Assembly (NCBI GenBank): GCA_902826305.1
Contig: CADEEH010000008.1
Span: 1 to 64,000, forward strand
Reading direction: 5' to 3'
DNA from: an uncultured Burkholderiales bacterium
GTDB lineage: Bacteria > Pseudomonadota > Gammaproteobacteria > Burkholderiales > Burkholderiaceae_E
DNA length: 64,000 bases
The notes beneath the pieces are model-generated. The model worked only from the letters and a program-made list of their open reading frames with translations. It made no database searches and was not told where the DNA came from. The translations under genes and the position numbers were made by a program. Below are positions 4,633 through 41,137 of this stretch, piece by piece. Each line of letters begins with the position of its first letter. The stretch's first letter is position 1.

Positions 4633-5853
4633 ATGGCCGCACGAGGACTCGAGGCACACGAGGACTCTGGACCACACAAGGACTCTGAGCCGTACAAGGA
4701 CGCAGGGCCGCACAAGGCGCCAGGCCAGACAAGGGTCGCAAGGCGACACGAAATCGCAAGGCGACACGAGGGCTGGCGACGCAAGGACATGGCAAGAACG
4801 ATCGAACGGGTTCCACCGCCGCATCTGCGCGAAGTCGAGCGCATGGCTGCCGAGCGGCGTGCCGACGAGGGCGGCCATCGCCTGCGCCACACATTCGCTC
4901 TTGGAGCGGGTGTCGGCGCCGGCCTGCTCGTCTGTGCGCTGGTGTTGTGGTTCGCATTGTCGTCCGAGCCGACGGTGGCGCGGCGTGCAGGTGATGGCGC
5001 CCTCGGCGAACGCACCGCGCGCACCGGAGTGACCGGCACCGTGACGACCTCACCGACCGACGCCCAGTCCGCCGCGGGTGTGCAGGGCGAGCCTCGGATC
5101 GCACGGGCCGACCCGCCGCCGATCTCGCGCGTCGAGCCTGCGCCAACGCCTGCCGACCCGGCCAACACGGCGCGAACGGGCCGCTCCACCGACGGGCCTG
5201 GTGCGGCCGCGGCGGATCAGCGGCGCACGGATCGGACATCCCGGCCGGCCGTCAATGAGAGGTCCGTGGCGGCACCGCGAGCGGAGGCAGTCCCCGGCCG
5301 CGAGGCGGGTGCCCCCGCGACGCCCGCAACCCCGGCGCCGGCGACCTCGACAAGCCCGGCGACGCCCGCGACCTCGGCAAGCCCGGCGCCTCCTGCGACC
5401 TCGGCAACGCCGGCGACTCCGGCAACCCAGGCAAGCACGGCAACCTCGGCGACCCAGGCAACCCCGGCAACCCCACCCCGGCGGGTTCTCGGGTCCGTCG
5501 AGACCGGCCCGGGACCGCGGGTCGTGCTGCACGTCGACCGCAGCGCCGCCGAACGCGAGCCGGCCCGTCTGGCACGACTCGCCGAGCGGCTGCGCGGCGC
5601 GGGCGCCGGTTCGATCGAAATGGTCGAAGTTGACGTCCGGATCGGTCGCGATCAGTTGCGCTTCTACTTCGATGACGATCGGGCGGACGCGCAGCGGCTG
5701 GCGGCAGCCCTGGCCATACCGGCCGGCCAGGGCACCGGCCCGGCACGATCGCCGGAGGTGCGCGACTTCACGTTCTACCGCCCGTTGCCCCGCGGCGGCA
5801 CCATCGAGATCTGGCTCGCCTCGTCCACCTCGGAGAGCGCCGCCTTCAATTGA
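4633..5853 (+). CDS. Single-pass membrane protein with Ala/Thr/Pro linker and LytR_C-like C-terminal domain
   Basis: 406 residues from the ATG at 4633 (GGGGAA upstream). Residues ~9-50 are seven degenerate hexapeptide repeats ([18 protein letters not shown] and so on). One transmembrane helix follows at ~86-108 ([21 protein letters not shown]), then ~180 residues dominated by ATPAT-type repeats. The last ~120 residues are globular, with [31 protein letters not shown] and a final strand, resembling LytR C-terminal domains that bind envelope partners. The topology predicts a periplasmic C terminus. A later ATG at 4789 would drop the hexapeptides and is an equally possible start. No function is claimed. 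Confidence 0.6.
4657..4782 (+). repeat. 18-bp degenerate tandem repeat, 7 units, in-frame
   Basis: Seven consecutive 18-base units, each beginning with a cacgag/cacaag-like hexamer, encode the six-residue units [36 protein letters not shown] and HEGWRR. The first four and last three form two subfamilies. Confidence 0.8.
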
Positions 5854-16145: not shown

Positions 16146-17627
16146 GTGTCCCTGCGTCCTGCCATCGCCAGCCAGCAGTTCGATGACGCCGCACTCGCGC
16201 TTGCGCACGTGCGGGCGATCTACGATGCGAACCTCGCCTACCTTCGCGACGAACTGCAGCGCTTCCTGCAAGGCATCGATCCGCCGGAGCGTGTGCATGC
16301 GTTCTACCCGACGGTGCGGCTGGTCACCGACACCGTCGCACGTCCGGACTCGCGGCTGGCCTACGGCTTCGTCGCCGGGCCGGGCACCTACGCGACGACA
16401 CTCACCCGTCCCGACCTGTTCGACGACTACTACCTGGATCAGTTCCGGCTGCTGATCGGCAATCACGGCGTCGCGCTCGAGGTCGGCACCGGCAGCGAGC
16501 CGATCCCGATGCATTTCGCGTTGCCCGAGGACCATCACCTCGAGGGGGCCCTGGGTCCGGAGCGGCAGTTGCGCCTGCGTGACCTGTTCGACCTGCCCGA
16601 CCTGGCGGCGATGGACGATGGCATCGCCAACGGCACCTATCAGCCGGCGCCGGGTGAACCGCATCCGTTGTCGCTGTTCACCGCGTCGCGTGTCGACTAC
16701 TCGCTGCATCGCCTGCGCCACTACACCGGCACCGCGCCCGCGTGTTTCCAGAACTTCGTGTTGTTCACCAACTACCAGTTCTACGTCGACGAATTCGTCC
16801 GTCTCGGCCATGCACTGATGGCCGGCGACCGCTCGGCCGCACTCGAGGACAGCGATGCCTACGAGGCCTTCGTCGAACCGGGGGATCTGACGACGCTCCG
16901 TGGCGGCGGCACCTCCGGCAGCGCACCGCCGCGGCTGCCGCAGATGCCCGCGTACCACCTGGTGCGCGGTGATCGCGCCGGCATCACGATGGTCAACATC
17001 GGTGTCGGACCGGCCAACGCGAAGACGATCACCGATCACATCGCGGTGCTCAGGCCACATGCGTGGATGATGCTCGGCCATTGCGCGGGCTTGCGCAATT
17101 CGCAGCGGCTGGGTGACTACGTGCTCGCCCACGGCTACGTCCGCGAGGATCACGTGCTCGACGAGGACCTGCCGTTGTGGGTGCCGATTCCGGCGCTGGC
17201 CGAGATCCAGGTCGCGCTCGAGGCGGCGGTGGCCGAGGTCACGCGGCTGTCGGGTTATGAACTCAAGCGGATCATGCGCACCGGCACGGTCGCCTCGACC
17301 GACAACCGCAACTGGGAACTGCTGCCGCAGCAGACGCCGGTGCGCCGTTTCAGCCAGAGCCGGGCGGTGGCACTCGACATGGAAAGTGCAACCATCGCCG
17401 GCAACGGGTTCCGCTTCCGCGTGCCGTACGGCACGCTGCTGTGTGTGTCCGACAAACCGCTGCATGGCGAGATCAAGCTGCCGGGCATGGCCGGTCGGTT
17501 CTACCGCGAACGGGTCGAACAGCACCTGCGGATCGGGCTGCGCGCGGTCGAACTGTTGCGGACCCAGCCGGTGGCCCGCCTGCACAGCCGCAAGCTGCGC
17601 AGCTTCTTCGAAGTCGCGTTCCAGTAG
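16146..17627 (+). CDS. amn: AMP nucleosidase
   Basis: 493 residues from a GTG at 16146, matching the usual ~480-490. The N-terminal half is the Amn-specific regulatory domain (RLAYGFVAGPGTYATTLTRPDLF, DYYLDQFRLLIGNHGVALEVG, RVDYSLHRLRHYTGT). The C-terminal half is the nucleoside-phosphorylase-like catalytic fold (VNIGVGPANAKTITDHIAVLRP, GHCAGLRNSQRLGDYVLA, AVALDMESATIAGNGFRFRVPYGTLLCVSDKPLHGE, the last with the catalytic Asp). It hydrolyses AMP to adenine and ribose 5-phosphate, usually ATP-activated and phosphate-inhibited, adjusting adenylate pools. GTG is favoured because the upstream TACAGT looks like the promoter. Confidence 0.95.
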   Translation: MSLRPAIASQQFDDAALALAHVRAIYDANLAYLRDELQRFLQGIDPPERVHAFYPTVRLVTDTVARPDSRLAYGFVAGPGTYATTLTRPDLFDDYYLDQFRLLIGNHGVALEVGTGSEPIPMHFALPEDHHLEGALGPERQLRLRDLFDLPDLAAMDDGIANGTYQPAPGEPHPLSLFTASRVDYSLHRLRHYTGTAPACFQNFVLFTNYQFYVDEFVRLGHALMAGDRSAALEDSDAYEAFVEPGDLTTLRGGGTSGSAPPRLPQMPAYHLVRGDRAGITMVNIGVGPANAKTITDHIAVLRPHAWMMLGHCAGLRNSQRLGDYVLAHGYVREDHVLDEDLPLWVPIPALAEIQVALEAAVAEVTRLSGYELKRIMRTGTVASTDNRNWELLPQQTPVRRFSQSRAVALDMESATIAGNGFRFRVPYGTLLCVSDKPLHGEIKLPGMAGRFYRERVEQHLRIGLRAVELLRTQPVARLHSRKLRSFFEVAFQ

Positions 17628-17734
17628 CCGGGCCGGGTCCGACGCCGGTCGGCCCCCGGGTCAAGGAAAGCGGTCCGCGGTCGATGTGGCGGGCACGGGC
17701 CGCTGCGTCGGCTCGCCTCGAAGGAGCCGGCCCC

Positions 17735-19216
17735 ATGTCCATCCGACCCGTCCTCGTTGTCCTCACGGCCGCCGCCGCACTGTGGGCGTCACCTGCCGTC
17801 CGGGGCGCGGAGCCGGCCGATGGTCTCCGGCCGCCGGCCGCTTCCGCGGGGTCCCCGGCATCGGGCGCGGCGGGCGCTCCGTCGTCGGCCGCCCCATCGT
17901 CGGCCGCCGGGGCGACCCCGCCGACCGGCGCGCGCCAGGTGCCACCCGGCGCACCGCCGCTGATCGCGATCCCGCGCTTGTCGGAACAGGTCACCGAAAC
18001 CCCGCAGCCGCGGCCGGCGGCCAATGCGGCGCCGGCCAAGGCGTCGGCATCGACCGCGGAACACACACCACCGGCGAGTGCAGCTGCACCGAAGGCGGCG
18101 ACGCCGGCGCCGGCGAGCCCGGCGGCCGCAGCAGCACCTCCGAAGGCTTCGCCGCCGCCCGCCGCGCGGGCTGCCACGGTCCCCTCGGGCCAGACGGTGC
18201 AGGCCGTCCATGCGGCACCGGGTCCTCGATCCGACCATGCACCGGCACCGGCACCGGCACCGGCGCACGCCGCTGCCGCCGGCACGCCGTCCGCTCACGC
18301 CGCGGCGGAAGCGCCCAGACCGGCGGCTCCGACCGGCGCGGCCGCAACGCCACCGATCCCGACGACCGCGATGTCGGAATCGCAACGGCTGGCGGCGCTG
18401 CGTGACCGGATCGCCGAGAAGGTGATCGAGCACCGCGCGGCAGCCGCGGGGACACCGCCGCCGTCGCTGGTGATCACGGTGCGCAAACCGGAGGGCGGCT
18501 CGGCCCACGGAAAATCGACACGCCGCAACGCCGATCACGGCGGCGCACACTGGAGCTACCAGGGTGCGACCGGCCCCGAGCACTGGGCCGACCTCGATCC
18601 GGCCAATGCCGCCTGTGCCATCGGTCAGCGGCAGTCCCCGATCGACATCCGGGGCGGCGTCAAGGTCGATCTGGAGCCGATCACCTTCGACTACCGCGCC
18701 GTGCCGTTCCGGGTGATCGACAACGGGCACACCGTCCAGGTCAACGTCGAACGCGGCAACACGATCACGGTGATGGGGCGTCGCTACGACCTGGTCCAGT
18801 TCCACTTCCATCGACCGGCCGAGGAGCGGGTCGACGGTCGGGTGTACGACATGGTCGCGCACCTGGTCCACAAGAGCGCCGATGCGAAACTCGCGGTGGT
18901 CGCGGTGCTGCTCGAACGCGGCGCCGCGCACCCGCTGATCCAGCGCGTCTGGAACAATCTGCCGCTCGAACGCAACGAGGAGGTGCCGGCCTCGCAACCG
19001 GTCGACCTGAACGACCTGCTGCCCGCCGATCGCGGCTACTACACGTTCATGGGCTCGCTGACGACACCACCGTGCACCGAGGGTGTGTTGTGGATGGTGC
19101 TGCGCCAGCCGGTGAACGTCTCGGCCGACCAGATCGGCATCTTCATGCGGCTGTATCCGATGAATTCGCGACCGCTCCAGTCCGCAGCGGATCGGCTGAT
19201 CAAGGAATCGAACTGA
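17735..19216 (+). CDS. Secreted alpha-class carbonic anhydrase with very long Ala/Pro-rich linker
   Basis: 493 residues. AAGGAG lies 8 bases before the ATG at 17735. Signal peptide at 1-24 (AVRGAE), then ~240 residues of Ala, Pro, Ser and Thr with almost no other structure, then the enzyme from ~267: HWSYQGATGPEHW, CAIGQRQSPIDI, the zinc ligands in FHFHRP and the third His in MVAHLVHK, and SLTTPPCTEGVLW with the gate Thr. It hydrates CO2 in the periplasm or outside. Bacterial alpha enzymes are usually ~220-250 residues, so the linker doubles the size and suggests anchoring to, or spanning, the envelope. A Cys pair (NAACAIG, TPPCTEG) fits the conserved disulfide. Confidence 0.93.
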   Translation: MSIRPVLVVLTAAAALWASPAVRGAEPADGLRPPAASAGSPASGAAGAPSSAAPSSAAGATPPTGARQVPPGAPPLIAIPRLSEQVTETPQPRPAANAAPAKASASTAEHTPPASAAAPKAATPAPASPAAAAAPPKASPPPAARAATVPSGQTVQAVHAAPGPRSDHAPAPAPAPAHAAAAGTPSAHAAAEAPRPAAPTGAAATPPIPTTAMSESQRLAALRDRIAEKVIEHRAAAAGTPPPSLVITVRKPEGGSAHGKSTRRNADHGGAHWSYQGATGPEHWADLDPANAACAIGQRQSPIDIRGGVKVDLEPITFDYRAVPFRVIDNGHTVQVNVERGNTITVMGRRYDLVQFHFHRPAEERVDGRVYDMVAHLVHKSADAKLAVVAVLLERGAAHPLIQRVWNNLPLERNEEVPASQPVDLNDLLPADRGYYTFMGSLTTPPCTEGVLWMVLRQPVNVSADQIGIFMRLYPMNSRPLQSAADRLIKESN

Positions 19217-23198: not shown

Positions 23199-23313
23199 AC
23201 CTGTCTGACGGTGCGCGCGAGTATGCCACACCGGACTTGCGGCTCCGGTAACCCGATGTATCAAATGGTTAGGCGGGAGAGTCCGCATGGCGAACGGTCA
23301 GCGACCAGGCAAG

Positions 23314-23346
23314 AAAAAACCCGGGCGGCCGACGGGCCTGCCCGGG
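23314..23346 (-). terminator. Intrinsic terminator of the repeat-protein gene
   Basis: On the minus strand CCCGGGC ... GCCCGGG form an outer 7-bp stem enclosing further GGCC pairing, followed directly by six T. It lies 52 bases beyond the stop codon at 23398. Confidence 0.85.
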
Positions 23347-23397
23347 GAACGAACCGGACTCCCCGGGGGCGGGGGCCGGAGCGATGCCAGCGTTGCG

Positions 23398-23853
23398 TCA
23401 GGCGATCGACGAGGCATCCTTGACGACCGGGCGCCCGTCATCGAGCGCCAGACCGGAAGCATCTTTCACCGCCGGGCGCCCGTCATCGAGCGCCAGGCCG
23501 GAGGCATCTTTCACCGCCGGACGCCCATCGTCGAGCGCCAGACCGGAAGCATCTTTCACCGCCGGACGCCCGTCGTCGAGCGCCAGGCCGGAGGCATCTT
23601 TCACCGCCGGACGCCCATCGTCGAGCGCCAGACCGGAAGCATCTTTCACCGCCGGACGCCCGTCGTCGAGCGCCAGGCCGGAAGCGTCCTTCACCGCCGG
23701 GCGCCCGTCATCGAGCGCCAGTCGGGAGGCGTCCCTGACCGCGGGTCGGCCGTCATCCAGCGCCAGCGAAGCGGCCGGCAGGGTGCTTGCCTGCACCTGC
23801 AGCGCGGCGAAGGCAAGCGAAACGGGGATCAGGATCTTGGCAAACGTGTTCAT
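23398..23853 (-). CDS. Secreted protein built of eight 15-residue repeats, function unknown
   Basis: 151 residues. GGAG precedes the ATG at 23853. Residues 1-22 are a signal peptide (FAKILIPVSLAFAALQVQA). After STLPAA the rest is eight head-to-tail copies of LALDDGRPAVKDASG, varying only at a few positions (R for K in copy 1, R or S for G at borders, V for A in copy 8), then SIA and the stop. No Cys, no membrane anchor, alternating acidic and basic residues. Each unit could make a short turn-rich motif or stay disordered. It has its own terminator and appears monocistronic. I know no family; the near identity of copies signals recent expansion or gene-conversion. Confidence 0.8.
   Translation of the reverse strand: MNTFAKILIPVSLAFAALQVQASTLPAASLALDDGRPAVRDASRLALDDGRPAVKDASGLALDDGRPAVKDASGLALDDGRPAVKDASGLALDDGRPAVKDASGLALDDGRPAVKDASGLALDDGRPAVKDASGLALDDGRPVVKDASSIA
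23410..23769 (-). repeat. 45-bp tandem repeat, 8 exact-length copies
   Basis: Eight contiguous 45-base units. Inner units alternate between two sequence variants (distinguishable by GGCCGGAGG versus GACCGGAAG at one boundary), and one two-unit block of 90 bases is repeated exactly, showing duplication in 90-base steps. The outer two units are most diverged. Several frames on both strands are open through it, giving false ORFs. Confidence 0.95.
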
Positions 23854-24038
23854 GGCGAGCTCCATCGAATTCGGTTGAGAGTCTTTCGACCCGCGCTCAT
23901 CGGCGCGGTCGATGGAGCCAGTGTGGGCGTGCGAGGTCACCCGATCATGATCGACCGGTATCCTCGAGGGACCCGTGTGATCTCGATTCCGTCACGAGGT
24001 GGCGCGCGGGGGCGCGCGCACGACGACCGGTGATGTGC

Positions 24039-40351: not shown

Positions 40352-41083
40352 ATGTTCGACGTCGCGTTCACGCTGATTGCTCCGGCCGCCGCCGACCCGT
40401 TGCCGGTGCTCGACGACGGCGGCGTGGCGCTGGAGGACCGGCTGATCACCGAGGCGATCTTCGGTCGCCCGTGCGCGGCGTTGTGGACCGCGCCCGCCGG
40501 CCTCATCGTGCCGCGTTCCTACAGGCGCTTCGACCGATTCGAGAGCGCGCGGGCCGAGTCCGCCGCCCGCGGCACACCGGTCTGGCTGCGCCCGTCCGGC
40601 GGCGGCATCGTGCCGCAGGGCCCGGGCATCGTGAACCTGAGCCTCGCGTTCGCGACGATGGCCGCGCCTGACGGCCTGGGCCGCGCGGTGTACGACGGAT
40701 TGTGTGATCTGCTCGGCGCCGCGCTCGCCGGCTTCGGCATCGACGCCGAGCCGCGCGAGGTGTCCGGATCGTTCTGCGACGGCCGCTTCAACCTGGCGGT
40801 CGCTGGCCGCAAGATCGCCGGCACCGCGCAGTACTGGAAACACCTCGGGCCGGGCCGGCGCGCGGTGCTCGCGCACGCGCTGCTGATCGTCGATGCCGAC
40901 GCCGACGAGATCACGTCGCGGGTCAATGCCTTCGAACGGGCGATCGACAGCGGCACCGTGCACGATCCGGCGACGATCACGTCGGTGGCGCGCTGCCTGG
41001 CGGGACGGGGCACGGACCTGGCGCCGGCCGCGCGGCTGGCGCTGGTGCGCGAGGCGCTGGTGCGGGCAATCGACGCGCATTGA
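40352..41083 (+). CDS. Biotin/lipoate A/B protein ligase family protein
   Basis: 243 residues with the lipoate-ligase fold: VPRSYRRFDRFESARAESAARGTPVWLRPSGGGIVPQGPGIVNLSLAF (the RxSGGG loop binding lipoyl-AMP) and FNLAVAGRKIAGTAQYW with the catalytic-type lysine in GRKIAG. It lacks the separate accessory domain of E. coli LplA. It may transfer lipoate or octanoate to 2-oxoacid dehydrogenase or glycine-cleavage proteins. The 16-base spacing after the importer ATPase makes cotranscription probable, which is unexpected for a sugar-type importer. Acceptor and donor are undetermined. Confidence 0.82.
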   Translation: MFDVAFTLIAPAAADPLPVLDDGGVALEDRLITEAIFGRPCAALWTAPAGLIVPRSYRRFDRFESARAESAARGTPVWLRPSGGGIVPQGPGIVNLSLAFATMAAPDGLGRAVYDGLCDLLGAALAGFGIDAEPREVSGSFCDGRFNLAVAGRKIAGTAQYWKHLGPGRRAVLAHALLIVDADADEITSRVNAFERAIDSGTVHDPATITSVARCLAGRGTDLAPAARLALVREALVRAIDAH

Positions 41084-41137
41084 GAGGTGCGATGAGAGGC
41101 GCAATGAGAGCCGCAATGAGAGCCGCAATGAGAGGGG
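41081..41137 (+). repeat. 12-bp tandem repeat, about 4.7 copies
   Basis: Units TGAGAGGTGCGA, TGAGAGGCGCAA, TGAGAGCCGCAA (twice) and TGAGAGGGGA run from the stop codon of the lipoate-ligase-like gene to the ribosome site of the next gene. Each unit supplies an ATG preceded by a purine-rich GAGAG. Confidence 0.85.

Follow-up and report, generated by a model that had tools for sequence, protein, structure and literature searches.

Exported tandem-repeat proteins are an already known descriptive class. Among the closest described systems are TRP32, TRP47 and TRP120 of Ehrlichia, which are acidic (pI about 4), secreted proteins with near-identical tandem repeats (PMC2832021, PMC5895000). They act as effectors of an intracellular pathogen and leave its cells by type 1 secretion, and the repeat domain of TRP120, with repeats of 80 residues, has been reported to be disordered (PMC2832021, PMC5895000). 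The neisserial Ag473 family lipoprotein (NCBIfam NF047840) and the Legionella collagen-like adhesin Lcl (NCBIfam NF046116) are exported too, the latter with a tandem short-repeat region. A further point of comparison is the adenovirus fibre shaft, which is built from 15-residue triple beta-spiral repeats.

The gene considered here lies within a 64,000-nucleotide stretch of DNA from an uncultured Burkholderiales bacterium (hereafter, the window), and is an orphan addition to this class, as a signal peptide is followed by near-identical tandem repeats, although export itself is predicted from sequence. Like the Ehrlichia proteins, its product is acidic, of an exported type, and composed of near-identical tandem repeats. 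Unlike them, it has a Sec-type leader and 15-residue units, and there is no sequence link. The repeat part matches the Ag473 model faintly (15.9 bits against a cut-off of 100). Lipoproteins need a lipobox cysteine, whereas this protein has no cysteine and hence no lipobox. It scores 13 bits against a cut-off of 500 for Lcl, and contains no Gly-X-Y triplets. With the adenovirus fibre shaft, it has in common the 15-residue period, spaced hydrophobic residues and a glycine turn, but the match is no better than a scrambled control, and the units of its paralogues differ in length.

The coding sequence (23398–23853, minus strand) runs from an ATG start to a TGA stop, specifies 151 amino acids, and has the highest in-frame codon usage score of the six frames. 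A Shine–Dalgarno-like GGAG (23860–23863, minus strand) stands 6 nt before the ATG. The protein opens with MNTFAKILIPVSLAFAALQVQA|STLPAAS, continues with eight 15-residue units, and closes with Ile-Ala before the stop, with the leader and linker together accounting for 29 residues. The leader (23788–23853, minus strand) resembles a Sec/SPase I-type signal peptide, with a lysine in the n-region, a hydrophobic core, and an AxA-like site, and cleavage is predicted after residue 22 (VQA|S). The mature chain would comprise about 129 residues, with a pI of about 4.4, a GRAVY of -0.25, and no aromatic residues. The gene had also been credited with its own terminator. Downstream of the stop codon there is indeed a hairpin resembling an intrinsic terminator, with 7 + 4 pairs, one bulge, and a U6 tract behind it (23314–23346, minus strand), but it was missed by a simple terminator scan, probably owing to the bulge in the stem, and the 111-nt stretch that contains it does not fold better than shuffled sequences (z = -0.73). 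The terminator call thus rests on the stem plus the U-run.

The array (23407–23766, minus strand) consists of 45-bp units encoding LALDDGRPAVKDASG, from unit 1 (23722–23766) to unit 8 (23407–23451), eight being the assembled number in a 375-contig assembly where exact 90-bp blocks can be collapsed. Tandem Repeats Finder agrees, reporting a 45-bp array at 23427–23766 (7.6 copies, 90% matches) with a score of 491, by far the strongest in the window, so chance is not an issue. The exact peptide occurs in six of the eight units (units 2–7), the exceptions being unit 1, with the ending VRDASR, and unit 8, with PVVKDASS. Such edge variants are usual in arrays that evolve by unequal exchange. At the DNA level, unit 3 equals unit 5 and unit 4 equals unit 6, with exact identity spanning 107 bp at a 90-bp offset; units 3–6 (23497–23676, minus strand) are two identical 90-bp blocks, while units 2 and 7 represent other synonymous versions. 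The original prediction of a signal peptide with eight near-identical 15-residue units, and of an exactly repeated two-unit block left by recent duplication, is therefore borne out, and variation in copy number between strains is plausible. The window holds other tandem arrays, at 5338–5474 (units of 9/18/27 bp, consensus CCGGCGACCTCGGCAAGCCCGGCAACC, more diverged than the eight-unit array), at 1779–1870 (a short array of a 24-bp unit, 3.8 copies), and at 41075–41135 (a short array of the 12-bp unit GCGCAATGAGAG, 5.1 copies).

Variation among the inner six units is confined to third codon positions (7 variable columns), and pairwise codon differences amount to 51 synonymous and 0 non-synonymous. 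However, plus-strand open reading frames (23384–23878 and 23287–24033) cross the array, and it could be argued that the true product lies on the opposite strand, or that the array is noncoding DNA. One antisense frame (RPSSSARPEASFTAG) shows 77 synonymous and 24 non-synonymous differences, and looks conserved as well because third positions overlap. Consequently, the array alone cannot decide the strand. A unit that is GC-rich and has a length divisible by three leaves the long antisense frames open. The strand is instead decided by the paralogues: on contig C271 the frame that corresponds to these plus-strand frames is stopped, whereas ATG, GGAG, signal peptide, and motif are all retained in the sense frame. 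The sense frame is also the one favoured by codon usage, scoring 0.17, against 0.05 or less for antisense frames, although ordinary neighbouring genes score higher (0.26–0.40). Together with the lack of any Rfam match in the window, these results make an antisense or noncoding origin highly improbable. The claim of a real coding gene for an exported-type repeat protein thus holds, and the locus is a clean example of a repeat peptide held constant while codons drift and copies reshuffle, in a small orphan family with paralogues.

The paralogues were found by searching the window’s own assembly with the repeat protein, and they rule out a one-off frame artefact. These further loci all sit at contig ends, as is expected because repeats break an assembly. 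On contig C268 lies a second gene, of which the 5' part is present (MKAIANILIPATFAVVTMASAATIHATIDSHRPTVTDASSLAMRSVNDATTLAGTDRPEVKDASGLAYRSIKDATTL), and C76 ends in repeats of the C268 type, with the 3' end ...LAFRSVNDAGQLA-stop. Matching repeat DNA and orientation suggest that C76 and C268 each hold half of a single gene. A third, partial copy is represented on C271 by its 5' part. Both 5' parts begin with a leader similar to that of the window gene and have a GGAG before the ATG. Common to all loci is a nearly constant core, V-x-D/N-A-S/T-x-L-A, set in units of 11, 14, or 15 residues. The gene starts on C268 and C271 are identical at 39 of 56 residues and have the leader and motif in common, with 12/4/20 differences at the three codon positions (dN 0.19 and dS 0.45 by NG86; 0.14 and 2.0 by YN00). 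Upstream, C268 and C271 are alike, the window locus resembles them only weakly, and no firm shared promoter emerges.

Synteny between C268 and C271 extends over almost all of their length (about 4 kb), at ~80% DNA identity. The adjoining PLP enzyme of Cys/Met metabolism shows 83% identity between the two contigs. In most genomes of the taxonomic family this enzyme occurs in one copy, with no more than 73% identity. Since it is normally single-copy, C271 probably derives from a congeneric organism and was co-binned, a segmental duplication being less likely; whichever applies, C271 provides an independent comparison. The bin itself, with a listed contamination of 3.75%, probably includes pieces of a second congeneric organism. 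The assembly contains no second copy of the surroundings of the window locus.

Matches to known families require particular care for near-perfect repeats, and hits from profile libraries need scrambled-repeat controls. The repeat protein exceeds the Pfam cut-offs for ALF, Kiwellin, and Strep_pep. However, when five scrambled 15-mers were each repeated eight times, two of the five arrays passed unrelated cut-offs (DUF765 at 32.9, FliG_M at 32.9, IS66_C at 32.5, and IPI_T4 at 27.6). The ALF repeat match (PF03752; 31.3 bits against a cut-off of 25.4) is not specific, as scrambles score as high. The Strep_pep match (PF14404; 25.3 bits against a cut-off of 25) has no single significant stretch and, like the Kiwellin match, is an artefact of the repeats. 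None of the three is matched by the paralogue fragments. Given that scrambles match equally and paralogues match none, the Pfam hits represent chance matches summed over the repeats. NCBIfam and PHROGs matches were likewise put down to repeat inflation after the scrambled-unit controls, which upholds the initial view that the protein has no recognisable family.

The distribution of the family appears to be narrow, all loci detected so far lying in this one assembly. The family profile found no relative when run on the 73 further genomes from the taxonomic family, a comparison spanning 16 genera in all with no genus mate in the collection. Even samples drawn from the order (399 genomes), class (369), and phylum (398) likewise yielded no relative among ~10 scored candidates per genome, a depth at which weak relatives could be missed. 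Scans of a genome collection of 84,980 species and of viral contigs detected nothing, and neither did protein-level searches against plasmid and phage sequences. Beside the lyase or the dimethylarginine-hydrolase-type gene, no small repeat gene with a signal peptide was seen in other genera, and literature searches returned no described family of this exported-repeat kind. The original prediction had counted absence from relatives against the gene; the 73 family genomes do lack it, and this reads as narrow distribution rather than as an unreal gene. Such a distribution, and the ease with which short repeats arise, would also suit a repeat family of recent origin that chance and mutation bias have preserved, its selected function being slight or absent. 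That is unlikely, as the assembly holds several loci with the leader kept, and the inner units show 0 amino-acid changes against 7 variable synonymous sites.

The explanation that we tentatively favour, at a rough probability of 0.45, is that of a lineage-restricted family encoding an exported, acidic, extended repeat chain, whose array changes in length by block duplication under selection on the peptide, and which may serve as a flexible surface, matrix, or periplasmic spacer. Synthesised with a Sec signal peptide, the protein would be set free as the mature chain. Unequal exchange of 45/90-bp units would both lengthen the array and homogenise it, with selection holding the peptide constant. 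We infer an extended shape for the exported product, which might act, in the periplasm or extracellularly, as a flexible and multivalent chain of spacer or matrix type, with the core motif as a repeated contact unit and copy number setting length or avidity. If the product is made, it would offer a minimal system for studying the function of a pure-repeat exported chain and the tuning of repeat number. A more far-reaching version, in which a genus-restricted family built on the core motif and variable spacers forms a previously undescribed periplasmic or extracellular polymer, with length tuned by repeat number, is doubtful.

The main rival to a flexible chain is an ordered fibre or solenoid (a beta-solenoid, a triple beta-spiral-like trimer, or an amyloid-like stack), with one unit per rung, forming a stalk or fibre. 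The strict 15-residue period, the spaced hydrophobics (L-x-L...V), and the turn-like DDGRP speak for it, as does the only PDB match found by phmmer, a weak one to adenovirus fibre (E 0.076). However, one of two scrambled-unit controls hit another fibre better (E 0.0064), and the family profile matched nothing in the PDB. The attributes of a triple beta-spiral (a 15-residue unit, core hydrophobics, and a Gly/Pro turn) are partly present in the window unit and are not kept in the paralogues, where units are 11 and 14 residues long, lose the turn glycine or a core position, and do not retain both core leucines. AlphaFold gave no confident fold, the low pLDDT (50.5 alone, 46.1 with paralogues) being weak evidence for disorder in a repeat orphan with 1–4 sequences. 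The predicted monomers, modelled as single chains, have almost no strands and no ordered domain. An ordered fibre therefore seems a rather poor fit.

The genomic context has a bearing on where a flexible spacer chain might act. On its upstream side, the same (minus) strand carries a dimethylarginine-hydrolase-type gene and one for a class-III aminotransferase; on the downstream side lies a gene for a membrane protein that matches PMT_2 weakly. All ten of the neighbours scanned are of metabolic or housekeeping type, and none hints at a phage or a dedicated exporter. An extracellular location for the protein is a guess, because no anchor, sorting motif, or secretion-system gene adjoins the array, and the periplasm is equally possible. 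The neighbourhood also bears on whether the eight units could be released or modified as small peptides after export, in the manner of a multi-copy signal or RiPP-like precursor. Identical, strongly conserved peptide copies behind a leader would suit such a precursor, as would the Strep_pep match just at its cut-off, but scrambled arrays give matches of the same kind. Pfam identified no peptide-modifying ligase, cyclase, protease, or peptide exporter among the ten neighbours, and the protein has no dibasic or other obvious processing site. In addition, Sec leaders are generally known to be unusual among bacterial RiPP precursors, and a precursor role is accordingly quite improbable. Elsewhere in the window, a gene at 17441–19216 encodes a eukaryotic-type (alpha) carbonic anhydrase domain, preceded by a long Ala/Pro-rich, low-complexity N-terminal half.
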